Part shown: one piece after another, positions 2,111-21,262 of the stretch
How positions within the stretch are numbered: the stretch's first letter is position 1
Layout of the letters: the number at the start of each line of letters is the position of its first letter
Assembly (NCBI RefSeq): GCF_025961475.1
Contig: NZ_JAOQNS010000003.1
Span: 258,501-322,500, forward strand
Reading direction: 5' to 3'
DNA: 64,000 nt
Origin: Rhodobium gokarnense
GTDB taxonomy: Bacteria; Pseudomonadota; Alphaproteobacteria; Rhizobiales; Rhodobiaceae
Position numbers and translations under genes: made by a program
The notes under the pieces: model-generated
What the model was told of the DNA's origin: nothing
Seen by the model: the letters and a program-made list of their open reading frames with translations, nothing else
Database searches by the model: none

Positions 2111-3099
2111 GCCGATATCGCCGTGCCGATGGAAGACGTTAACGCGACCGCCCGGGCATGCGTGGCGATCGCCGTATCCTGCGCACCGGTGCCGGTGAGA
2201 TCGCAGATGGTGACGTCCGAGGGACTTTTGCGCGCGATTACCTCGCCGGTAACGACCGCGCCGAGTTCGGCCGGCATTGGACCGGTCCAGAGCCCGGCGG
2301 TAATCGCGGACCGCAATTCGCCGAGCGCCTCGCACTGGCTGACCCGGTCGCAGATATAGGCGTCGGCGGCAATGAGCGCCCTCGGGTCGATCTCGTTCTT
2401 CTCGCCCTGGTCGGAGCCCATGGCGGTGATGTGAAGGCCGGGATGCAGCCAGTCGGCGGACAGGATCGGCTCCTTCGCCGGCGTCGTCGTGACGACGAGC
2501 TGGCTGTCCGCAACGAGCTTGGCCGGATCGTCGACGCCAAGAACCTCAATGCCGAGATCGGCGGCGATGTCCGCCGCGCAGTCCGCCGCCTTGACGGGAT
2601 CGCGGCCCCAGACCAGCACGCGGCTGAACGGCCGCACCAGCCGCGCCGCCTTGATCTGCAGCCGCGCCTGAACGCCCGTGCCGAGAACGCCGGCCGTCGT
2701 CACCTCTTCCGGCGCCATATGCCGTGCGGCCACGGCGCCGGCCGCGGCCGTACGCACATCCGTCAGATAGCCATTGTCGAGGAACAGCGCCTCGACGAGC
2801 CCGGTCCTGGCCGAGAACAGGATCATCAGCCCGTTGAGGCTCGGCAGCCCGAGGGACGGGTTGTCGAAGAAGCCGGGGCTGACCTTGATCGCGAAACCGT
2901 CGAAGCCGGGAATATAGGCGGTCTTGACGTCGACCTCGCCATTCGCCTCCGGGATCGCCATGGAAAGGATCGGCGGCATCACGACGGAGCCGCTGGCGAG
3001 CGCCGCGAACGCTTTCTCGACCACGTCGATGGCGGTTAGGTCGAGCTTAACCGCCTCCCTCAGTTCCGCCTCGGTGACGACGAGGATGTCACGCGCCAT
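2107..3099 (-). CDS. eutC: EutC-type ornithine cyclodeaminase family protein
   Basis: A 330-residue member of the ornithine cyclodeaminase/mu-crystallin family. The NAD-binding Rossmann loop GVLGTGVQAR lies at about 137-146, with the conserved LTDVRTAAAGAVAA segment just before it and Lys72 in the substrate region. From remembered family sequences, the run VSPGFFDNPSLGLPSLNG and the ending DLTGTGAQDTAIAT are typical of EutC, the ectoine/hydroxyectoine utilisation branch, rather than of true ornithine cyclodeaminase. It overlaps the eutB-like gene by 11 bases, the usual EutB-EutC pairing. In characterised systems EutABC convert hydroxyectoine towards ectoine. EutA is not seen here, so the exact reaction is open. 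Confidence 0.85.
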   Translation of the reverse strand: MARDILVVTEAELREAVKLDLTAIDVVEKAFAALASGSVVMPPILSMAIPEANGEVDVKTAYIPGFDGFAIKVSPGFFDNPSLGLPSLNGLMILFSARTGLVEALFLDNGYLTDVRTAAAGAVAARHMAPEEVTTAGVLGTGVQARLQIKAARLVRPFSRVLVWGRDPVKAADCAADIAADLGIEVLGVDDPAKLVADSQLVVTTTPAKEPILSADWLHPGLHITAMGSDQGEKNEIDPRALIAADAYICDRVSQCEALGELRSAITAGLWTGPMPAELGAVVTGEVIARKSPSDVTICDLTGTGAQDTAIATHARAVALTSSIGTAISA

Positions 3100-4096
3100 A
3101 GGGCATCCCCTTGATGGTGAGATCGCCGAGCATCACGTCCGCCCCAGTGATCACTTGCGTGAAGACCTGCATGTCGACATTCCGTCCGGTAATCACGGTG
3201 GCGGCCGGTCCTTCCGGCTTCGGCAGCTTGCCGGCCTGAAGCGCGGCGATGCCGACGACGCAGGCGCCCTCCGCCACCAGCCGGTCCTCGTAATAGAGCG
3301 TCTGCATGGCCCGGTAGATTTCCTCTTCCGTGACCAGCACCACCTCGTCGAGGAGGTCGCGGCAGAGCGCAAATGACAGCCGGTTCTGAAGCCCGATGCC
3401 GCCGCCGAGGGAATCGGCAAGGCTCTCCACCTCTTCGACCTCCACCGGGTGGCCGGCCTTGATGGACGCATGCATTGCCGCGCCCCGGTCCATGGATATC
3501 CCGATCACGCGCGCCTTCGGATTGGCGGCCTTCACCGCCAGCGCGATGCCGCCGGCAAGCCCGCCGCCGGAGAGCGGCACCAGCACCATGTCAAGATCCG
3601 GCCGGTCCTCCATCAGTTCCAGCCCGATGGTGCCCTGGCCGGCGATCACCAGCGGATCGTCGAAGGGCGAGATCTCCGTCAGCCCCTCCTCGGCGCAGAG
3701 CCGAAGGCTTTCCTCCAAGGCATCGTCCTGGCTCGCACCGACGATGCGCACCTCCGCGCCGAGCGCCCGGATGCCATCGACCTTCGTTTGCGGCACCAGC
3801 GAAGACATGCAGATGACGGCTCTTAGCCCCCGCGCCCGCGCCGCATAGGCAACACCGCGGCCATGATTGCCGGTGGAGCAGCAGGTGACACCGGCAACGT
3901 CGCCCGGCAGCGAGAAGACGGCATTGACCGCGCCGCGCAGCTTGAAGGCACCGATCGGCTGGGTGTTTTCCAGCTTGAGGAGGAAGTCGTGGCCGCAAAG
4001 GCCGGAAAGATGCGGCGAGGGAACCAGCGGCGTGCGGATGACGGTTCCGGAGATCCTCTTTCTTGCGGCGAGGATGTCCGCAAGGCTGACGCTCAT
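3089..4096 (-). CDS. eutB: EutB-type threonine dehydratase-like PLP enzyme
   Basis: A 335-residue fold-type II PLP enzyme. The PLP-binding lysine is Lys52 in GAFKLRGA, the STGNHGR segment follows, and the glycine loop SGGGLAGGIA binds the cofactor phosphate. The signature DSLGGGIGLQNR with RDLLDEVVLV is typical of EutB of ectoine utilisation operons and separates it from biosynthetic threonine deaminase (IlvA), which also has an ACT-like regulatory domain absent here. The start ATG overlaps the end of the ABC ATPase gene by 4 bases. The known role of the family is dehydration or deamination of a beta-hydroxy amino acid, and the hydroxyectoine route is the likely context. Confidence 0.88.
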   Translation of the reverse strand: MSVSLADILAARKRISGTVIRTPLVPSPHLSGLCGHDFLLKLENTQPIGAFKLRGAVNAVFSLPGDVAGVTCCSTGNHGRGVAYAARARGLRAVICMSSLVPQTKVDGIRALGAEVRIVGASQDDALEESLRLCAEEGLTEISPFDDPLVIAGQGTIGLELMEDRPDLDMVLVPLSGGGLAGGIALAVKAANPKARVIGISMDRGAAMHASIKAGHPVEVEEVESLADSLGGGIGLQNRLSFALCRDLLDEVVLVTEEEIYRAMQTLYYEDRLVAEGACVVGIAALQAGKLPKPEGPAATVITGRNVDMQVFTQVITGADVMLGDLTIKGMPYGA

Positions 4097-4911
4097 CCCG
4101 CCTCCATGACCGCGGAGAGGAATTGCTGGGTGCGTTCCTTCTGCGGATTGCCGAATAGCTCGTCGGGGCTGCCCTGCTCCTCGATCTTACCGCCGAAGAA
4201 GAAGCAAACCCGGTCGGAGATTTCCTTCGCAAACCCCATCTGGTGGGTCACCATCAGCATCGTCAGGTTATGCTTGTCGACCAGTTCGCGGATGACGTTT
4301 GTCACCTCGCCGATGACCTCCGGGTCGAGCGCAGAGGTCACCTCGTCGAACAGCATCACCTTCGGCCGCATGGCCAGCGCCCGGGCGATCGCCACGCGCT
4401 GCTGCTGGCCGCCGGAAAGCCGCGACGGGTGCTGGTCGACCTTGTCTTCCAGCCCCACCATCTGAAGGAGTTCCAGCGAGCGCTCGCGCGCCTCCTTCTT
4501 GGAAAGCCCGAGCACGTGGACCGGCGCCTCCATGCAGTTTTCCAGCGCCGTCATGTGCGGGAACAGGTTGAAGTGCTGGAAGCACATGCCGATGTCGGCG
4601 CGCATCTTGCGCAGATATTTCTCCGAGGCCGGCACCAGCACGCCGCCCTTTTCCATGTGGGTGAGCGGCTTGCCGTCCACATAGATGACGCCGCCATTGA
4701 TCGTCTCCAGCGTCATCAGCATGCGCAGCACCGTCGTCTTGCCGGAGCCGGACGGGCCGATGACGGAGACCATTTCGCCGGCGGCGACGTCGAGGTCGAG
4801 CGAATCGAGCACGACCAGCGCCCCGTAGCTCTTGGTGACGTTCATGAACCGGACCATCGGGACATCGTCCCCTTCCAGCCGGAGGGGATAGGCGGACATG
4901 TCTTCTGACAT
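4093..4911 (-). CDS. ehuA: ABC transporter ATP-binding protein, ectoine/polar amino acid type
   Basis: A 272-residue ATPase that powers uptake through the two permeases encoded just upstream. Walker A is GPSGSGKTT, the signature is LSGGQQQRVAIARAL, and Walker B is VMLFDEVTSALDPE, followed by the H-loop VTHQMGFA. The GlnQ/HisP class couples to family 3 binding proteins. The gene overlaps the ehuD-like permease gene by a single base and the eutB-like gene by 4 bases, so transporter and enzymes form one tightly packed operon. The ehuA name rests on its place next to EutB and EutC; another polar amino acid could be the true substrate. Confidence 0.87.
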   Translation of the reverse strand: MSEDMSAYPLRLEGDDVPMVRFMNVTKSYGALVVLDSLDLDVAAGEMVSVIGPSGSGKTTVLRMLMTLETINGGVIYVDGKPLTHMEKGGVLVPASEKYLRKMRADIGMCFQHFNLFPHMTALENCMEAPVHVLGLSKKEARERSLELLQMVGLEDKVDQHPSRLSGGQQQRVAIARALAMRPKVMLFDEVTSALDPEVIGEVTNVIRELVDKHNLTMLMVTHQMGFAKEISDRVCFFFGGKIEEQGSPDELFGNPQKERTQQFLSAVMEAG

Positions 4912-5582
4912 CAGATCAACCCGAGTTTCTTGCGCACCCAGGCCTCAAAGACCCGGATCAGGGCAGCGGTTGGCAGCGAGATGAGGAGGAAGATGACGCC
5001 GACCAGCGTGTAGGGCTCCAGGAAGCGGTAGCTCTCTGAGCCGATGGCGTTGGCCGTATGCATGAGTTCCGCAACGCCGATGACGGACAGCATCGGCGTG
5101 TCCTTGAAGATGCCGACGAGGTAATTGCCCATGCCGGCGAGCGAGGGCGGCAGTGCCTGCGGAATGATGATGCGGAAATAGGTTCGCGCGGTGCTGAAAT
5201 TGAGCGCCCGCGCCGCCTCCCACTGGCCCTTCGGCACGCTCTCCAGCCCGCCGCGATAGACCTCGGAGAGATAGGACGCGTAGTGCAGGCCGATGGCGAT
5301 CATGCCGCTCGTCCAGGGCGACAGCCGGATGCCGAATTGCGGGCCGACGTAATAGACGAAGAAGATCTGCAGCACGAGCGGCGTGGAGCGGATGAACTCC
5401 ACCACCTCGCGCACGCCGCGGGTCAGCACCCTGGAGGGCGTGCGCTGGGCGAGCGCCAGCGCGAGCCCGAGGACGACCGCTATGGCATAGCCGAGGCCGG
5501 CGGCGAGCAGCGTGTTGAGGGTCGCCAGCAAGAGCCGCGGCAGGATCTCGAAGGTGAAGTCCCAGCGCCAGTCGAAACCCAT
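4911..5582 (-). CDS. ehuD: ABC transporter permease, HisM/EhuD type
   Basis: A 223-residue inner membrane permease with about five membrane segments. It has the EAA loop EVYRGGLESVPKGQWEAARAL at mid-length that docks on the ATPase, and the REVVEFIRSTPLVLQ segment typical of the HisM/GlnP family. It lies 3 bases after the companion permease gene and touches the ATPase gene. The two permeases probably form a heterodimer that receives substrate from the binding protein encoded at 6366-7211. Confidence 0.87.
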   Translation of the reverse strand: MGFDWRWDFTFEILPRLLLATLNTLLAAGLGYAIAVVLGLALALAQRTPSRVLTRGVREVVEFIRSTPLVLQIFFVYYVGPQFGIRLSPWTSGMIAIGLHYASYLSEVYRGGLESVPKGQWEAARALNFSTARTYFRIIIPQALPPSLAGMGNYLVGIFKDTPMLSVIGVAELMHTANAIGSESYRFLEPYTLVGVIFLLISLPTAALIRVFEAWVRKKLGLI

Positions 5583-8627: not shown

Positions 8628-9788
8628 ATGACCCTGATCGACGACACGCGCGACATCCTTCGCGACCTCATCGCCTTTCCGACCGTCTCCGCCGACAGCA
8701 ATCTGGAGCTCATCGCCTATGCCGCCGACCATCTCGGCGCGCTCGGCGCCCGCACCTCGGTGATCCTCGACGAGACCGGCCACAAGGCCAACCTGATCGC
8801 CAGCCTCGGCCCGGAAGAGGACGGCGGCATCGCGCTCTCCGGCCACTCCGACGTGGTCCCCGTCGCCGATCAGGACTGGTCGTCGGACCCGTTCGAATTG
8901 CGCGAGGAGAACGGCCGCCTCTATGGCCGCGGCACCTGCGACATGAAGGGGTTCATTGCCGCGTCCCTCGCCGTCGCCCCACTGTTTGCCGAGCGTCCAC
9001 TCTCCCGCCCGCTCCATTTCATCTTCACCTATGACGAGGAGGTCGGCTGCCTCGGCGCCCGGCATCTGGTCGACGAGATGGGGCGCATGGACACAAAACC
9101 ATCCGTCGTCATCATCGGCGAGCCGACGGAAATGCGCATCGTCGAGGGCCACAAGGGCTGCTGCGAATACACCACCACCTTCACCGGGCTGGAAGGCCAC
9201 GGCTCCATGCCCGACCATGGCGTCAACGCTGTGGAATACGCCGTGCGCTACGTCGCCAAGCTGATGGAACTGCGCGAGGACATGAAGTGCTGGGCGCCCG
9301 CCGGCAGCCGCTTCGATCCGCCCTGGACCAGCCTGCAGGTCGGCCGCATCGCCGGCGGCGTCGCCCACAACGTCATTCCCGGCCTTTGCACGGTCGACTG
9401 GGAGATGCGGCCGGTGCGCGCCGAGGACCGCGTCCGTCTGCGCGCCGCCATCGACGCCTATGTCAGCGACACCCTGTTGCCGGACATGCGCGCCGTCTCG
9501 CCGGAGGCCGACATCCTCACCCACGTCATCGGCGAGGTTGTCGGCCTGGAGCCCGCAGACGACAACGAGGCGCTGCGCATCGTCTCCGAACTGACCGGGT
9601 CGAACGAGGCCGACGTCATCGCCTTCGGCACGGAAGCCGGCCTCTTCCAGGAGCTCGGCATGTCCGCCGTCGTCTGCGGCCCGGGTTCGGTAGAGCAGGC
9701 CCACAAGCCCGACGAATTCGTCACCCTCGATCAGCTCGAAAGCTGCCTTGCCATGCTAAGAGGACTGGAAGAAAGGCTGATCGCGTAA
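8628..9788 (+). CDS. M20 family deacylase, ArgE-like
   Basis: A 386-residue zinc hydrolase of the ArgE/DapE/CPG2 family. Metal-site residues are visible: His73 and Asp75 in SGHSDVVPV, Asp105 in GRGTCDMKGF, and Glu137-Glu138 in TYDEEVGC. The family removes N-acyl groups from amino acids such as N-acetylornithine. It starts 7 bases after eutD. In known ectoine pathways the product of EutD is deacetylated by EutE/DoeB, an M14-type enzyme that is absent here, so this unrelated enzyme may do that step. A biosynthetic ArgE role is less likely given its place between eutD and a regulator. Confidence 0.9.
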   Translation: MTLIDDTRDILRDLIAFPTVSADSNLELIAYAADHLGALGARTSVILDETGHKANLIASLGPEEDGGIALSGHSDVVPVADQDWSSDPFELREENGRLYGRGTCDMKGFIAASLAVAPLFAERPLSRPLHFIFTYDEEVGCLGARHLVDEMGRMDTKPSVVIIGEPTEMRIVEGHKGCCEYTTTFTGLEGHGSMPDHGVNAVEYAVRYVAKLMELREDMKCWAPAGSRFDPPWTSLQVGRIAGGVAHNVIPGLCTVDWEMRPVRAEDRVRLRAAIDAYVSDTLLPDMRAVSPEADILTHVIGEVVGLEPADDNEALRIVSELTGSNEADVIAFGTEAGLFQELGMSAVVCGPGSVEQAHKPDEFVTLDQLESCLAMLRGLEERLIA

Positions 9789-10562
9789 ATGACGAACGAG
9801 GACGACCACGACCGGGTCACAGACGACATCGCGCCGGGCGTGCCGGCAAGAGAGTCGGCTCCCGCCGACGTGCCGCCGGAGATCCGACCCGCCGGCGGCG
9901 CCCGCGAGCGCTTCGAGCGGCTCCACATCGAACTGCGCAACCGCATCTGCCTGCTCGACTATCCGCCCGGCACCAGGCTGCGCGAGGCGGACCTTGCGCG
10001 GGAGTTCGGCATCAGCCGCACGCCGCTGCGCCGTGTGCTCGGCTGGCTGGAGGCGGAAGGCCTCCTACGGTCGGTGCAGAGCGTCGGCACCCTCGTCACC
10101 GATGTCGACGTGGAGGAATTGCAGCAGGTCTACCAGTTGCGCATGGAGCTGGCCGAAATGGTCGGCCACCTCTCGCCGGTGTCGCCGAGCGCGGAGACCG
10201 TACAATTGTTCCGCGACCTGAAGGCCCGGAGCTGCGCCCTCGTCGACGATCCGAGGCCCCGCGCGTTTGCCGAAATCAACATGGATTTCTTCCATGCCCT
10301 GATGCGGCTGACGGCGAGCGAGCCGTTGCGGGAAATTTCCGAACGCCTCTACTACCAGACCTCCCGCATCTGGCTGCGCTCCATCTCGCAGATGGACCTC
10401 GTCGAAGAAGTCGAGATCTTCGCCCGCGAAGTCGCCGACATCTGCGCGGCCGTCGAGATCGGCGACCTCTCCGCCGCCGGCCACATCCGCCGCTCGCATA
10501 TTTCCATGAGTTTTACGAGGGTAAGGCGACAGAAGGTGGCGCGGGAGAGAAACGCGGGGTAG
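9789..10562 (+). CDS. GntR family regulator with FCD ligand domain
   Basis: A 257-residue DNA-binding protein. After a variable 35-residue N-terminus comes the winged helix (about 40-110) with READLAREFGISRTPLRRVLGWLEAEGLL, then an all-helical FCD domain with the family motif pattern EINMDFFHALMRL. It begins directly after the stop of the deacylase gene with no gap. It probably senses a pathway intermediate and controls both operons through the boxes at 7264-7379. Known ectoine regulators of the EnuR type are MocR proteins with an aminotransferase domain, so this is a different solution. Confidence 0.9.
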   Translation: MTNEDDHDRVTDDIAPGVPARESAPADVPPEIRPAGGARERFERLHIELRNRICLLDYPPGTRLREADLAREFGISRTPLRRVLGWLEAEGLLRSVQSVGTLVTDVDVEELQQVYQLRMELAEMVGHLSPVSPSAETVQLFRDLKARSCALVDDPRPRAFAEINMDFFHALMRLTASEPLREISERLYYQTSRIWLRSISQMDLVEEVEIFAREVADICAAVEIGDLSAAGHIRRSHISMSFTRVRRQKVARERNAG

Positions 10563-10619
10563 CGTCAGCCGATCAGAACCGTTTCGGTAGCCCGCCTGGT
10601 TGAGGACGGCATTGGCCGT

Positions 10620-10712
10620 ATGACGAAGCCCCAGGCTTCGCAAGGCCGACCGGCCGCCGGCGCCAATGCGCCGCCCGTCGGAGCCGTGAGCGCAGCGAAC
10701 TGGCGTGAGACA
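10620..10712. repeat. Intergenic repeat family 3, copy A
   Basis: The 17-base core AGGCTTCGCAAGGCCGA at 10633-10649 occurs identically at 22372-22388 and 22964-22980. Around it are the shared pieces GGCCGCCGGCGCC...TGCGCCGCCC and, further on, GAGCGCAGCGAACT. It fills the gap between the GntR gene and the tRNA-Lys gene. The element is not coding as far as I can see. Confidence 0.65.
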
Positions 10713-10727
10713 AAAAAGAGAGAGGAT

Positions 10728-10803
<76 letters not shown>

Positions 10804-10886
10804 TGAATGTCAGGAATGCGGCCACCAATCGCGCCGCACCGGCGCTTTATAGGGACGATCATTTCGTTTGGCAACCGTTTCCGGCT

Positions 10887-11390
10887 ATGGATTTTGCGGC
10901 TAACACTGTCGCCATGTCCGCGCTGATGGTTCCGCCCGATCTTCACCGCCTGCTCGCCCGCGCCGGGCTCGGCGCACGGGTCGTTCGCGGCGCGGAAGGC
11001 GGCGGCGGAGAGCTCCAATTGCCCCGCGCACCCGGCGCCTATGTGCTGGTTCTCGGTCTTGCCGAACCGGCCGCCCTTCCCGCCCGCTTCGGCGAGGCGA
11101 TGCTCCCCCCCGGCTGGTATCTCTATTGCGGCAGCGCCCGCGGCCCCGGCGGCATCGCGGCACGGCTCGGCCGGCACCTGCGCCGCGAGAAAAAAAACCG
11201 GTGGCACATCGACGCCCTCACGATCGCCGCCGGAACCATCGAGGCCGCCGCCGTGCCGGACGGCGACGAGTGCGCCCTCGTCTCGAAGCTTTCGGCGTTC
11301 CGCAACATCGACGTGCCGGTTCCGGGCTTCGGCAGCACCGACTGCCGGAGATGTGCAAGCCATCTCTTGCGCTGGAGGAGCACGATATAA
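10887..11390 (+). CDS. DUF123 GIY-YIG nuclease-like protein
   Basis: A protein of up to 167 residues with the DUF123/GIY-YIG fold. GAYVLVLGL stands for the GIY strand and GWYLYCGSARG for the YIG strand, followed by the conserved Arg-rich helix RLGRHLRREKKNRWHIDAL and a Glu in the ECALVSKL helix. The family is found alone or fused to endonuclease III, and its job is unknown, probably DNA-related. The start is uncertain: ATG codons at 10887, 10914 and 10926 are in frame and none has a convincing ribosome site. It converges with leuA across a shared terminator. Confidence 0.82.
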   Translation: MDFAANTVAMSALMVPPDLHRLLARAGLGARVVRGAEGGGGELQLPRAPGAYVLVLGLAEPAALPARFGEAMLPPGWYLYCGSARGPGGIAARLGRHLRREKKNRWHIDALTIAAGTIEAAAVPDGDECALVSKLSAFRNIDVPVPGFGSTDCRRCASHLLRWRSTI

Positions 11391-11420
11391 AAAAAGCCGG
11401 CCCGGAGTGTCCGGACCGGC
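11388..11420 (-). terminator. Terminator between leuA and the DUF123 gene
   Basis: The hairpin GCCGGCCCGGA/TCCGGACCGGC (11396-11420, loop GTG, one mismatch) has a run of A on its left side that reads as a U-run on the minus strand. It is therefore a good intrinsic terminator for leuA, and it also closes the rightward DUF123 gene, though with only a short T-run in that direction. Confidence 0.75.
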
Positions 11421-11450
11421 CTTTGATCGTCACCGTAAAGACGGAGCCCC

Positions 11451-13019
<1,569 letters not shown>

Positions 13020-13559
13020 CGGAGCGGGTCCTTTCTCGTCTTCTCCGGCGGCGCAAGGCGCTCATGGCCGGACTTATCTCAAAACGCTGTGAGGAAACTT
13101 CGGTCTTTGCGCTTATCCCCTAAGTGCCCGCCCTGTTACGGGGCTGCCGACGCTCAGGGGCAGATAAGGAGGAGAAGCGAGCCGGCGAGCGGAAGGGTTC
13201 CGCGCCGGGGCGCGGCGATCGCGAAAATCTCGGTATGCCGAGCGGCGATCATCAAATGGTCCTTCGTCTTCCGTCTGGTCGGCGTTGCGACAAATAGCCC
13301 TTGCGGGAGAGCTTGGCCGACGCCGGTTACCGGGTCGTTAACACGTCTTTATCCGAAATCGCGGCCGGATTGCAAGAGAGGATCACCGCCAAGCATGCTT
13401 ATGAGGTCCGGTCGGCGTCGTCAGGTGTCGCAAGCCCGCCCGCAAATCCGACATAGTCGATTTGCACAGACCGGCGTCGAAGCACGTCGGCGCCGATGCG
13501 CCGTGGCCTGCGTGGCGTCTGAACGCAAACCAACATGGGCTCTTCGAAAAAGAACCCGA
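13020..13559. other. 540-base gap between phzF-like gene and leuA
   Basis: This stretch lies upstream of leuA. I see its ribosome site near 13029-13035 but no leader peptide with leucine codons on the minus strand, no clear terminator hairpin with a U-run, and no convincing gene. Short frames here look like chance. A leuA promoter must lie within it but I could not place it. Confidence 0.5.
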
Positions 13560-14592: not shown

Positions 14593-15360
14593 CTATTTCA
14601 CGTAGAAGGTCGGCTGGTCCGCGTTGGCGTCCTTGCTTACCCTCGCCTTGACCGCATCGGCATTGATCCGGAAGCGCGTCTTGCCGGGCTGCGCGATCGA
14701 CCGCACTTCTTCCACGAGTCCCATGGACACCAACTCCGCGAGTGCTTCGCCGGCCTTTTCCGGCACCACGTTCTCATTGGTCGCGAGCGCTTCGACGGCC
14801 CCGCGGGTGCGCGGCTGATCGAGCAGGCTGTGAAAAACGACCCCCTCTGCACCCGAAAACGTCACGGTGCCGGCGGGCGGTTCGGCGACCTTTGGGATCT
14901 CGCCAGCCGCCGCCCGGTTCTGCAGCTCGTTGTCGAGTTCCTTGACCTCCGACTGCAGCGATTCCAGCAGGCGGCGGCTGAGGCTGGCAAAGAACGCCCG
15001 GTAGCTGGCGCCGACGACGACGCAGAAGGCAACGAGCAGCATCAGCGACGGCAGGAAGCTCCGGCACAGATTTACGCCGTTGACGACCTCGCAGTCGTTC
15101 GAGGAAATCGGCTGGAAGACGTTGGAGATCAGGGATTCCTGGACGCCCATGGACGCAACGCTCAGGAACACCGGCACGACGAAGGCCGAAGCGATGCCTG
15201 CGGTGATGGATTCCTTCACCGTGACGATGGGCGCCGCCGGTGGGTCCGGATCGTCCACCGGCGCGAACCGCGCCAGGATCGAACTCACATAGCCGCCGAG
15301 CGCACCACCCGCGACCATCGCCGTCACCGCGACGACCTGGTTCCATCCGAATACATCGGC
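14593..15360 (-). CDS. Membrane protein with three helices and a C-terminal winged-helix-like domain
   Basis: A protein of about 255 residues. Three membrane helices are visible: near 5-30 (VVAVTAMVAGGALGGYVSS), about 50-75 (GIASAFVVPVFLSVASMG) and about 100-122 (LPSLMLLVAFCVVVGAS). A coiled coil (SLQSEVKELDNELQ) and then a winged-helix-like C-terminus (about 165-245) follow. The first part resembles small membrane proteins annotated as YEATS-associated, which is from memory and unsure. ATG at 15360 is chosen because GGGGA lies eight bases upstream; ATG 15390 and TTG 15402 are also in frame. The role is unknown; a membrane-linked sensing role is possible. Confidence 0.7.
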   Translation of the reverse strand, partial: ADVFGWNQVVAVTAMVAGGALGGYVSSILARFAPVDDPDPPAAPIVTVKESITAGIASAFVVPVFLSVASMGVQESLISNVFQPISSNDCEVVNGVNLCRSFLPSLMLLVAFCVVVGASYRAFFASLSRRLLESLQSEVKELDNELQNRAAAGEIPKVAEPPAGTVTFSGAEGVVFHSLLDQPRTRGAVEALATNENVVPEKAGEALAELVSMGLVEEVRSIAQPGKTRFRINADAVKARVSKDANADQPTFYVK

Positions 15361-15448
15361 CATGATGGCAATCCCCGTTGGAACGACCATCGCATGATAC
15401 AACCGGAAATATAGACAGGAAAGTCGTCAGGCAGTCCCGGCAAATGCC

Positions 15449-18142: not shown

Positions 18143-18829
18143 TCAGTCGGGCTCCGGCGCGCTGCCGGCCTCCCGGGTGGCGGTATCGGCCCCGAAGAGC
18201 CGGAAGAAATGGTCGACGGCGACCTCCGCAAGAGCGGCGAAATCGCGTTCGGAGGGCCGCGGTGCGGCGCCGAGCAGCATGCGGGTATGGGTGTCGCCGA
18301 TGATGAGGCCATAAAGGGTGCGGTAGGCGGTCTCCACGTCGGTATAGACGAGGTGGCCGCGTCGGCGCCCGGTCTCCAGCACGGCATGGGCGCGGCGCTC
18401 GATGCGGCCACGGCCGTGTTCCAGCAGCAGATGGCCGAGCCGGGCGTCGTCCCGGTTGGCCTGGCCGATGGCCAGCCGGTTGAGCGCGAGCGAGGCATCG
18501 CCGGCAAGCACCGTCAAGAGGTCGGTGCCGAAGAGGACAAGCCGCTCGCGCACGGTCTCCCGCCCGCCGATGACCTCATCGGGGAAACGGACCTTGCGCG
18601 CCTGGAACGAGACGACGGCGGCAAGCAAGCCATCCCGGTCGCCGAACCAGCGGTAGAGGCTTTCCTTGGAGCAGTTGGCGGCGCGCGCGATGCCGGCCGT
18701 CGTCAGCGCCCGCTCGCCGCCCTCGACGAGCAACTGCAGGGCGCTTTCCAGCACGGCGTTCTGCCGCTCGCTGAAATCCACCTGATCGATCTGCTTCCCT
18801 GCCGCCGGCGCCTTCGCATTCAGTCTCAT
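18143..18829 (-). CDS. TetR family transcriptional regulator
   Basis: A 228-residue regulator with an N-terminal helix-turn-helix (about 22-68), where TTAGIARAANCSKESLYRWFGDRDGLLAAVV is the recognition region, followed by a helical ligand domain of the TetR_C type. The likely operator and promoter lie at 19059-19094, leaving an untranslated leader of roughly 230 bases, which is long. It lies upstream of ilvC on the same strand, but ilvC control by it is not shown. The regulated target is unknown. Confidence 0.9.
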   Translation of the reverse strand: MRLNAKAPAAGKQIDQVDFSERQNAVLESALQLLVEGGERALTTAGIARAANCSKESLYRWFGDRDGLLAAVVSFQARKVRFPDEVIGGRETVRERLVLFGTDLLTVLAGDASLALNRLAIGQANRDDARLGHLLLEHGRGRIERRAHAVLETGRRRGHLVYTDVETAYRTLYGLIIGDTHTRMLLGAAPRPSERDFAALAEVAVDHFFRLFGADTATREAGSAPEPD

Positions 18830-19058
18830 TGGCCCGACCGCGCAATCCGCGGCGGCCCGCCGCGCGGACGTGCAACTCTAGCCGCGCTTAGCTGCTCCAC
18901 GAAATCTCCCACAGCCGACCACACTCTGACCACTCGCGGCCTCGCCCACACCATCACGACGTCCCCCGCCATCTCAGAGGCCCAGGACGCACGCAAGGCA
19001 TCCGCCCGAGATCCCCGGATACACAAGATCGAGCCGTTGCCGCCCCGGCCAACCGAAC

Positions 19059-19094
19059 CGTACGGTACCGTACGCATACGCAGCTCAATGTCAA
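19059..19094 (-). promoter_or_regulatory. Promoter overlapped by a 16-base palindrome, upstream of tetR
   Basis: On the minus strand TTGACA (19094-19089) and TACGGT (19072-19067) are spaced by 16 bases. The perfect palindrome CGTACGGTACCGTACG (19059-19074) covers the -10 box. A palindrome of this size on a promoter is typical of TetR-type autoregulation. The A+T-rich insertion begins right next to it on the other side. Confidence 0.55.
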
Positions 19095-19170
19095 GCGATG
19101 AGTCCCTTTCGCCGGGAGGAACGCCGCTACCTGCGAAAGAATATCGCAATCCGCGAGCGCCAATTTAGAA

Positions 19171-19200
19171 TTGCATACTCGTTCGCTACAAATGTATGTT
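19171..19200 (+). promoter_or_regulatory. Candidate promoter of the SIR2-TPR gene
   Basis: TTGCAT (19171-19176) and TATGTT (19195-19200) are 18 bases apart, 36 bases before the start codon. An overlapping pair, TTTAGA and TACAAA with a 17-base spacer (19164-19192), is equally possible. The region is A+T rich, so chance matches are easy and this is only a proposal. Confidence 0.35.
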
Positions 19201-19235
19201 TCCGACAACAATCTAGAAGCGATGGGGCAGTGGGG

Positions 19236-20873
19236 ATGTCAAAACACATTGAAGAAGCGGTAGCTTGGTCAGTTGAACGCTTGTCCGCCGCGAAAAAAAA
19301 TAGGGGAACAGCCGGCAATTTACTGATTGGAGCTGGATGCTCGATCTCCTGCGGCATTCCATCTGCGGATGGCATTATAGAGTTAATCGCGAAGAGGTAT
19401 CCCAGCTCATACTCCAACATTTCGGATGAAGACAAGAAAGATTATCGTAAGATCATAAATTTGATACCGACATCAGAACGCCGAGATTTGATAATTGACA
19501 TTACGAGCAACAAGAAACTTACGTGGGGATATATTGCCTTAGCAAGAATTATGGAAGCAGGTTATATAAGTAAGGTTCTCAATTTGAATTTTGACCTTCA
19601 GCTACAGAGAGCGTGTAGTTTAATTGGCTTCCATCCAGCCATTTATGATTTTTCAAATGCTGGATTTAAGGATTTCGATTTAATCGCCAATCCATCTATA
19701 GTTCATCTCCATGGACAGAGCTATGGACTGGTCCAAATGAGTGACGAACAACAGACTAACGCGCATATGAGGCGACTCCGCCCGCTAATGACAAATGCAA
19801 TTAATACAGCTCCTCTTGCAGTTATTGGCTATAGTGGAGAATCTGACCAATTATTCAAGATTATGGAAAAAGAGTTTAGAGGTCGAGAGTCCCTCACATG
19901 GCTAGGATACGAATTATCTCCTAAGCCTCATTTGGATAAATTACTTTCAAAACCGCATACAAAATTTTTCGGTAATGTAGAATTTGACTCTTACATGGTG
20001 AACCTAGCTAGAGGGTTGGAGTGCTGGCCACCACGGATTCTGTCAGAACCGTTGGAATTAATCTCCGATTGGATTGGCGACATTGCCGCTTTCCGTCCAT
20101 CAAACGATGAAGAAAAAATCAATATCAGCTATTTTGTCAAGAAAAAAATTGATTATATTTCAAGAAATTGGAAGAATAGACATAAAGACATACCTGAGTT
20201 TGAATATTATATGATTTCTCTTGAGTTCGAAAAGGCAATAGCACTATATGAAAGCAGTGAAAACAGATCTAAAATCGAAAGGTCAAAATACCATAAGGAA
20301 TTATTGTCATGGGCTTACTCCGAAATGAGTTATAAATTGTGGAACACGGTGCATCATAAACAAAATAACGGAAAAGATTCTGATAATATACTTAACATGG
20401 CTCTCGAATACATTGATTTAGCGCTGAAATTCAATTCGAGTTATTCAAATATAAACAATAAGCTCAATATATACATTATAAAATATTTAGAAGATAAAAA
20501 AGCTAGCTCTTTGGAGAAAGCTATCAGCTATTTCAAAGCGTCAAGATCACGAGTTGAAACGTCGAAATTTTTATACAATGGTATTGTTGCCTATATTGAA
20601 TTATATAAAATCTCAGGAAACAAGGAAATTATTCACGAAACAAGGAATATTTGGAAAAAGCTCAGGGAAATGGATAAAACCAGGCCATACAACTATATTT
20701 GCTTCTGCTCTATTTCCGGGAATTTTCAAGAGTGTAAGAAACTGCTTTCAGAGGGCTTTGAGACCGGCACGCTTCCAAGTATCAGCTATATGATGCAGGA
20801 TGATGATCTTAAACCTATCGTAGACAAAACTTGGTTTAAAAAAATGATTTCCAAGTACGAGAAGGTTATCTAA
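19236..20873 (+). CDS. SIR2-domain protein with C-terminal TPR-like repeats, candidate anti-phage NADase
   Basis: A 545-residue protein. The N-terminal SIR2 domain (about 25-260) has LLIGAGCSISCGIPSADG (glycine-rich NAD loop, 29-46), LNLNFD with Asn118 and Asp120, VHLHG with His159 as the expected catalytic residue, and VIGYSGESD. The C-terminal half (about 290-545) is helical, TPR-like, and ends in DDDLKPIVDKTWFKKMI, a pattern seen at the end of TPR groups. Bacterial SIR2 proteins of this layout deplete NAD on phage infection in several defence systems. Codon use is strongly A+T rich, unlike both neighbours, so it was acquired by transfer. The ATG at 19236 follows a weak GGGG site. No partner gene is present on either side. 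Confidence 0.85.
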   Translation: MSKHIEEAVAWSVERLSAAKKNRGTAGNLLIGAGCSISCGIPSADGIIELIAKRYPSSYSNISDEDKKDYRKIINLIPTSERRDLIIDITSNKKLTWGYIALARIMEAGYISKVLNLNFDLQLQRACSLIGFHPAIYDFSNAGFKDFDLIANPSIVHLHGQSYGLVQMSDEQQTNAHMRRLRPLMTNAINTAPLAVIGYSGESDQLFKIMEKEFRGRESLTWLGYELSPKPHLDKLLSKPHTKFFGNVEFDSYMVNLARGLECWPPRILSEPLELISDWIGDIAAFRPSNDEEKINISYFVKKKIDYISRNWKNRHKDIPEFEYYMISLEFEKAIALYESSENRSKIERSKYHKELLSWAYSEMSYKLWNTVHHKQNNGKDSDNILNMALEYIDLALKFNSSYSNINNKLNIYIIKYLEDKKASSLEKAISYFKASRSRVETSKFLYNGIVAYIELYKISGNKEIIHETRNIWKKLREMDKTRPYNYICFCSISGNFQECKKLLSEGFETGTLPSISYMMQDDDLKPIVDKTWFKKMISKYEKVI

Positions 20874-21262
20874 TTTACGAATTCGCTGAGCAAGAAAACA
20901 CAGATAAAAAAGCACGAACGAAGACGCACTTAGCATTCCAAATGGCAAGAAACGACTTGGCTCATAAATGAATTTATAAGTAATTCATGAAAATCCATCT
21001 CAAAAAACGCGAGCTAATTGCCTGCCATAAGAGAGTTGTCTGACGCAGGCACAGCCGACTGGCCAGGCGGCCAGCAGCGATTGCCCGCAACGCTGCAGCC
21101 GCCGGAACGAGTCAGAAATCAATCGATTTGACGGCGCAGATTCGCTAAGATCGGTGCATGCCCCATCTGCTGTCGGCTGTAAGGACGCGGCTTCGCTCCG
21201 TTACACGCTGGCGCGCGATTCGATTTCGCAATCTCCCAAGCACGCAACCAGTAGAGGTCACC
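20874..21262. other. 389-base gap, right end of the A+T-rich insertion and fba leader
   Basis: The first 140 bases keep the A+T-rich character of the SIR2 gene. They contain the inverted repeat ATGAATT/AATTCAT (20968-20988), a weak hairpin without a T-run that may end the SIR2 transcript. From about 21010 the sequence is G+C-rich again. AGAGG at 21253-21257 is the ribosome site of the aldolase gene. No direct repeats or integrase traces bordering the insertion could be seen. Confidence 0.5.

Follow-up and report, generated by a model that had tools for sequence, protein, structure and literature searches.

The window, by which we mean the whole 64,000-nucleotide stretch of Rhodobium gokarnense DNA analysed here, carries an A+T-rich gene that probably encodes a horizontally acquired, single-protein anti-phage receptor acting by NADase abortive infection. 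The gene (19236-20873, plus strand, as are all its parts given below) runs from an ATG start to a TAA stop without an internal stop, and its 545-aa product joins an N-terminal SIR2 domain to a C-terminal helical half. The observations behind this reading are a foreign single gene, intact predicted catalytic residues, phage-borne relatives, no conserved partner, and C-terminal halves that are exchangeable in the relatives. Because the closest relatives travel in phages and exchange their putative sensor halves, the protein is probably a self-contained infection alarm which sacrifices the infected cell. It is a variant of the defence sirtuins, not a categorically new system, and a DSR2-like way of working is a separate matter from membership in DSR. 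Points against the receptor reading include the deviating residues Y99 and N116 of the window protein, and the Acinetobacter members located at stable household sites.

The G+C content of the gene is 37.4% against 66% in its flanks; apart from it, the next-lowest 1.6-kb stretch in the window has 60.6%. An open frame of this length would arise by chance at such composition with a probability of about 2e-18. The gene stands alone between a TetR gene (18143-18829, minus strand) and the fructose-bisphosphate aldolase gene fba (plus strand, from 21158 or a later start to 22156), just as the sequence-only reading had placed it. The wider neighbourhood is mostly household (ilvC for ketol-acid reductoisomerase and genes of GNAT, exo/endonuclease-phosphatase family, PEBP and helicase proteins), and the host genome has only this one SIR2-TPR copy.

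In the nearest available congener, G060, homology (about 93-95% identity) ends at 18812 and restarts at 21112, leaving 18813-21111 without homology to the matching site. In its place the congener, whose fba is 97% identical, carries 475 bp of unrelated sequence without a SIR2-TPR gene. Since the gene has 37.4% G+C and is absent from this site, it is foreign or at least variable. Judged by the comparison with G060, the earlier idea of a one-gene insertion is mostly right, but the borders are not clean and bear no marks: flanking repeats, tRNA and integrase were not found there, and transposon or integron borders were rejected on this ground. No phage genes flank the window copy, and promoter and terminator scans gave no more hits than shuffled sequences did. 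The left part of the variable segment contains, upstream of the TetR gene, the palindrome CCGTACGG (19050-19075), probably the TetR operator; a similar palindrome is present at the matching place in G060. Elsewhere in the window, the product of a minus-strand gene (14593-15402) has a YLATT three-transmembrane domain, of a kind linked to prokaryotic conflict systems.

The SIR2 domain comprises residues 1-263 (19236-20024) according to the PADLOC SIR2-pAgo models and the AF2 model. Its motifs are the nucleotide-binding loop GAGCS (residues 32-36, 19329-19343), the NFD motif N118-F119-D120 with the predicted catalytic Asn (19587-19595), the HGQ motif H159-G160-Q161 with the predicted catalytic His (19710-19718), and GYSGE (residues 198-202, 19827-19841). 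Invariant across an alignment of 23 family members are the loop except C35 (that is, G32, A33, G34 and S36), N118, F119, D120, L158-Q161, G198-G201 (GYSG), D204 and W222. The glycine loop, Asn118, Asp120 and His159, described earlier as kept, are indeed in place and conserved in the relatives. The PADLOC SIR2-Argonaute models cover residues 58-259 with E down to 2e-15, the Pfam SIR2_2 match is below threshold, and a PDB search with the protein as a single sequence gave no match.

Structure prediction, which had been proposed as a check, returned a SIR2 fold in the AF2 model (pLDDT 83). Among solved structures, ranked by VIA re-ranking of Foldseek hits, the SIR2 part of the model scores best with SPARSA (Z 24.2), followed by BcThsA (21.5), KomC (20.1), SIR2-HerA (19.5) and DSR2 (19.0); canonical deacetylases and sirtuins rank lower (17.4 and less). 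The predicted fold is nearest to antiphage NADases, and the protein is predicted to have catalytic Asn, Asp and His in a SIR2 fold, as expected of a defence sirtuin. It seems unlikely that the protein is immune but that its SIR2 domain, without depleting NAD+, produces a signal or acts on a target by ADP-ribosylation or deacylation. SIR2 domains are also known to deacylate and to ADP-ribosylate, and CobB-type models match 20-22 of the 23 members weakly, but the solved SIR2 domains nearest to the model are NADase effectors, ahead of the canonical deacetylases.

The C-terminal helical-repeat half, the putative sensor (residues 297-545, 20124-20870), is entirely helical both in the full-length model and when modelled alone. 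With only about 34 residues between it and the SIR2 domain, a STAND NTPase would not fit. A TPR_END-like segment (residues 485-538, 20688-20849) scores 16.9 bits with NF047558 against a curated cut-off of 32; its motif is aligned in the relatives, and the model matches 17 of the 23 family members. The relatives carry canonical TPRs, and their profile matches consensus TPR proteins at E 2e-74. Foldseek with the window half alone gave no significant match, only helical repeats, and no tandem repeat was found within the gene, whose repeats are degenerate. It is mainly the relatives, together with the weak TPR_END match, that suggest TPRs in the window protein. Of the earlier description of a TPR-like half with a TPR-end motif, the helical character stands and the motif is common in relatives, but the protein's own match stays below the cut-off.

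How does this protein compare with known systems? SLOG, STAND, HerA and Argonaute are all absent from the protein and its locus, and the statement that it is not recognisably one of the named systems holds. SPARSA (SIR2-APAZ) has the closest SIR2 domain both in profile (E 2e-15) and in structure (Z 24.2). It has APAZ and an adjacent short Argonaute, whereas the PADLOC match of the window protein stops at residue 259 and does not extend to APAZ, its C-terminal half consists of helical repeats, and no Argonaute gene is its neighbour. Thoeris ThsA, SIR2-HerA (Nezha) and Kongming KomC have the SIR2 fold in common with it (Z 18-21.5). ThsA has SLOG and a neighbouring TIR gene, ThsB, in contrast to the all-helical C-terminal half and the absence of a TIR gene among the neighbours here. 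ThsA works with ThsB, and KomC with other Kom proteins. The SIR2 protein of Nezha works with HerA (PMC11559045). None of the genes for ThsB, HerA or other Kom proteins lies near the window gene.

DSR2 is one protein that couples an N-terminal SIR2 NADase to a helical C-terminal part, by which it binds a phage protein (PMC10981675, PMC11087589). The window protein is likewise a single protein with a helical part after its SIR2 domain, in 545 aa against about 1000 aa, but the two align reliably only in the SIR2 domain. The PADLOC Dsr models gave no match to it at E up to 5 (five of 23 relatives match Dsr1 weakly), and by sequence models it is not recognisably a DSR. Avs5 also joins a SIR2 effector to a C-terminal sensing part and hydrolyses NAD+ on sensing a phage protein (PMC12931631); it has a STAND NTPase between SIR2 and repeats, where the window protein has about 34 residues. 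In P4 satellites, the single-gene TIR-STAND-TPR system places an NAD-type effector and a TPR sensor on a mobile element (PMC9122126). This system resembles the predicted effector-sensor layout of the window protein, and differs in having TIR in place of SIR2 and a STAND NTPase between them. All 23 aligned members match one of the two models of the PADLOC candidate PDC-S65, the window protein at E 1.6e-5 and over residues 99-259 only. The matches with coordinates are all within the SIR2 part, and judged by these models PDC-S65 overlaps the family at least there. In the literature searched we found no published description of PDC-S65 and none of a STAND-free SIR2-TPR single-gene system; the search was limited in scope and this absence is weak evidence.

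By analogy with DSR2 (PMC10981675, PMC11087589) and with Avs5 (PMC12931631), the SIR2 domain would be a latent NAD+ hydrolase that the C-terminal half keeps inactive. A phage product, a protein, bound by this half would be the trigger; binding would lead to assembly and to activation by oligomerisation as in ThsA, DSR2 and Avs5, whereupon the assembled SIR2 domains would destroy NAD+ and the infection would abort. NADase activity, oligomerisation, the phage-protein trigger, protection and the abortive outcome are all inferred.

A scan of 84,980 species genomes yielded 27 SIR2-TPR loci, in Acinetobacter, Psychrobacter, Gynuella, Azospirillum, Thiosymbion, Planctomycetota, Acidobacteriota, Actinomycetota, Armatimonadota and Rhodothermota. 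The family was delimited by a SIR2 domain with NFD...LHGQ...GYSGxxD...W and a C-terminal TPR array ending in TPR_END; the window protein fits in domain order and motifs, its own repeats being degenerate, and is likewise encoded by a single gene without partner. Intact members range from 514 to 1141 aa, mainly through repeat number. In L066, one gene (9134-10861) has 13 near-identical 132-bp repeats (44-aa TPRs), the result of a recent repeat expansion. The gene has lower G+C than its flanks in 16 of 19 tested loci (sign test p 0.004; the loci are not all independent). Tree analysis put the window protein together with the Moraxellaceae/Gynuella/P2-like-phage clade (99/97) and not with the Azospirillum copies of the same class, a placement which is unsure because the branch is long.

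The usual setting is a single unit adjoining household genes: mnmG in seven Acinetobacter records, and elsewhere genes that resemble rho, purA, guaA, pyrB and nadB (these names, like mnmG and the glyQ mentioned below, are by-eye sequence judgements without a family search). The protein had been supposed to work without partners, and a consistent essential partner, which would speak against this, was looked for among 185 neighbours of 29 loci; none was common to different genera. The families matched between genera were regulators and transporters alone, and their distances from the gene varied; a partner gene was rejected. Only about 6 of 99 Acinetobacter genomes have the mnmG-site copy, one of them in disrupted form, and in L112-L114 and L120 (compared with L098) there is no SIR2-TPR gene and the flanking genes are directly joined. 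At the mnmG site of L111, a gene for a 586-aa Sel1-repeat protein (3218-4981) with a very weak PtuA match replaces SIR2-TPR and is possibly another sensor-type cargo gene. In L097 (1-19901; G742, Acinetobacter) the mnmG-site gene is split by an insertion of about 15 kb, with two copies of the same transposase pair at its ends and kinase-like, MFS transporter and TetR genes inside.

Alleles at the two fixed Acinetobacter sites differ mainly in their C-terminal halves. At the glyQ site of six genomes (L091-L096), SIR2 halves are 80-97% identical and C-terminal halves 24-79%, several pairs of the latter being at the level of shuffled sequences (maximum 29%). For example, L091 and L093 are 91% identical in the SIR2 half and 30% in the C-terminal half. 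In this subfamily YLNGQ (LNGQ) replaces LHGQ, with Asn for the predicted catalytic His; PaAvs5-1 has the same His-to-Asn change in the HG motif (NG variant) and is functional with it (PMC12931631). The mnmG-site pair L045 and L046 has 97% identity in the SIR2 half and 51% in the C-terminal half. Their DNA is 84-100% identical over flank and SIR2 part, drops to 46-56% over gene positions 1050-1650, and is back at 90-100% in the flank downstream. This contrast recurs in the phage set L127-L131 (80-98% against 41-87%). Repeats generally evolve faster than catalytic domains, and this accounts for part of the contrast but not for the sharp borders. Because the SIR2 part is kept, the C-terminal half diverges and the DNA boundaries are sharp, the Acinetobacter alleles are read from sequence as a fixed effector with an exchangeable sensor, an arrangement found in relatives of the window protein only; L091-L096 may be called a natural sensor-swap series.

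The closest relative found, L121 on an IMG/VR contig, has 556 aa and is 38% identical over residues 8-534, about the whole length (N-terminal part 47%, C-terminal part 28%). Its gene has 43% G+C in 56% surroundings and follows an endolysin gene close to the edge of the contig. It is accessory to a prophage with a contractile tail and adjoins the lysis genes; the contig also encodes the large terminase, portal, head-maturation protease, tail sheath, tape-measure and baseplate proteins. In the P2-like phage L070 the order is integrase, HEPN_Apea, SIR2-TPR and CI repressors, and the interval from integrase to repressor is likely a defence cargo site. The adjoining gene there (1210-2727) codes for an ApeA-type HEPN protein. 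L122 has a replication-initiation gene on one side and endolysin/terminase genes on the other, and L127-L131 are among phage genes of low-G+C hosts, L130 adjoining HNH and terminase genes. L125 and L126 are viral by IMG/VR calls, with no clear phage gene in the portion inspected. More distant SIR2 cousins adjoin integrases in PM2-like and 186-like Vibrio phages, and a Haloferax pleolipovirus encodes a distant SIR2 protein with TPRs a few genes from its integrase. Searches for close homologues of the window protein in plasmids or annotated phages gave SIR2-domain cousins only.

The phage cargo positions and the exchangeable halves of relatives support the defence interpretation first made from the sequence. 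A non-immune stress or regulatory TPR protein, carried by phages for other reasons such as lysogenic conversion, is quite improbable; TPRs are general adaptors and several copies sit at stable chromosomal sites, but the patchy distribution, the places as cargo in phages unrelated to each other and the exchange of C-terminal halves between alleles count against it. The other 22 members of the alignment carry His at position 99 and Thr at position 116. Since L121 also has Tyr99 and lacks Thr116 (it has Ser there), Y99 and N116 look like traits of the window protein's branch rather than decay. Least probable is a decaying relic with lost function, to which these two deviations and the degenerate repeats without a remaining tandem array would point, but the 545-codon frame is intact, the catalytic residues are kept, and L121 has Y99 at nearly the same length.

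Beyond the anti-phage receptor reading of the window gene, we tentatively suggest that SIR2-TPR proteins could be widespread, partnerless, STAND-free innate immune receptors with NLR-like logic, in which one SIR2 frame is combined with exchangeable or repeat-expanded helical sensors. Temperate phages of several kinds would carry them and they would also be kept at fixed chromosomal sites, with the window gene as a diverged branch shared with a contractile-tailed prophage. If true, this would be a minimal one-gene immune receptor, effector and sensor fused, without NTPase switch, partner or second messenger. With the mnmG and glyQ allelic series of Acinetobacter, sensor specificity could then be tested by exchanging C-terminal halves on a shared SIR2 frame, which bears on the triggering of defence sirtuins and on the evolution of their recognition range.

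Some other loci deserve mention. In G118, of the same order as the host, a SIR2-TPR relative with an internal stop adjoins transposase genes (L036, 7780-9615). Downstream of SIR2-TPR, L065 has a match to the PADLOC candidate PDC-S11 (2522-3481, E 3e-87) and L058 one to PDC-M54A (8637-13301, E 2e-11). In G597, an A+T-rich element (L035, 4538-11326) carries an integrase gene, a distant SIR2-TPR relative of 690 aa and a PDC-S05-like gene.
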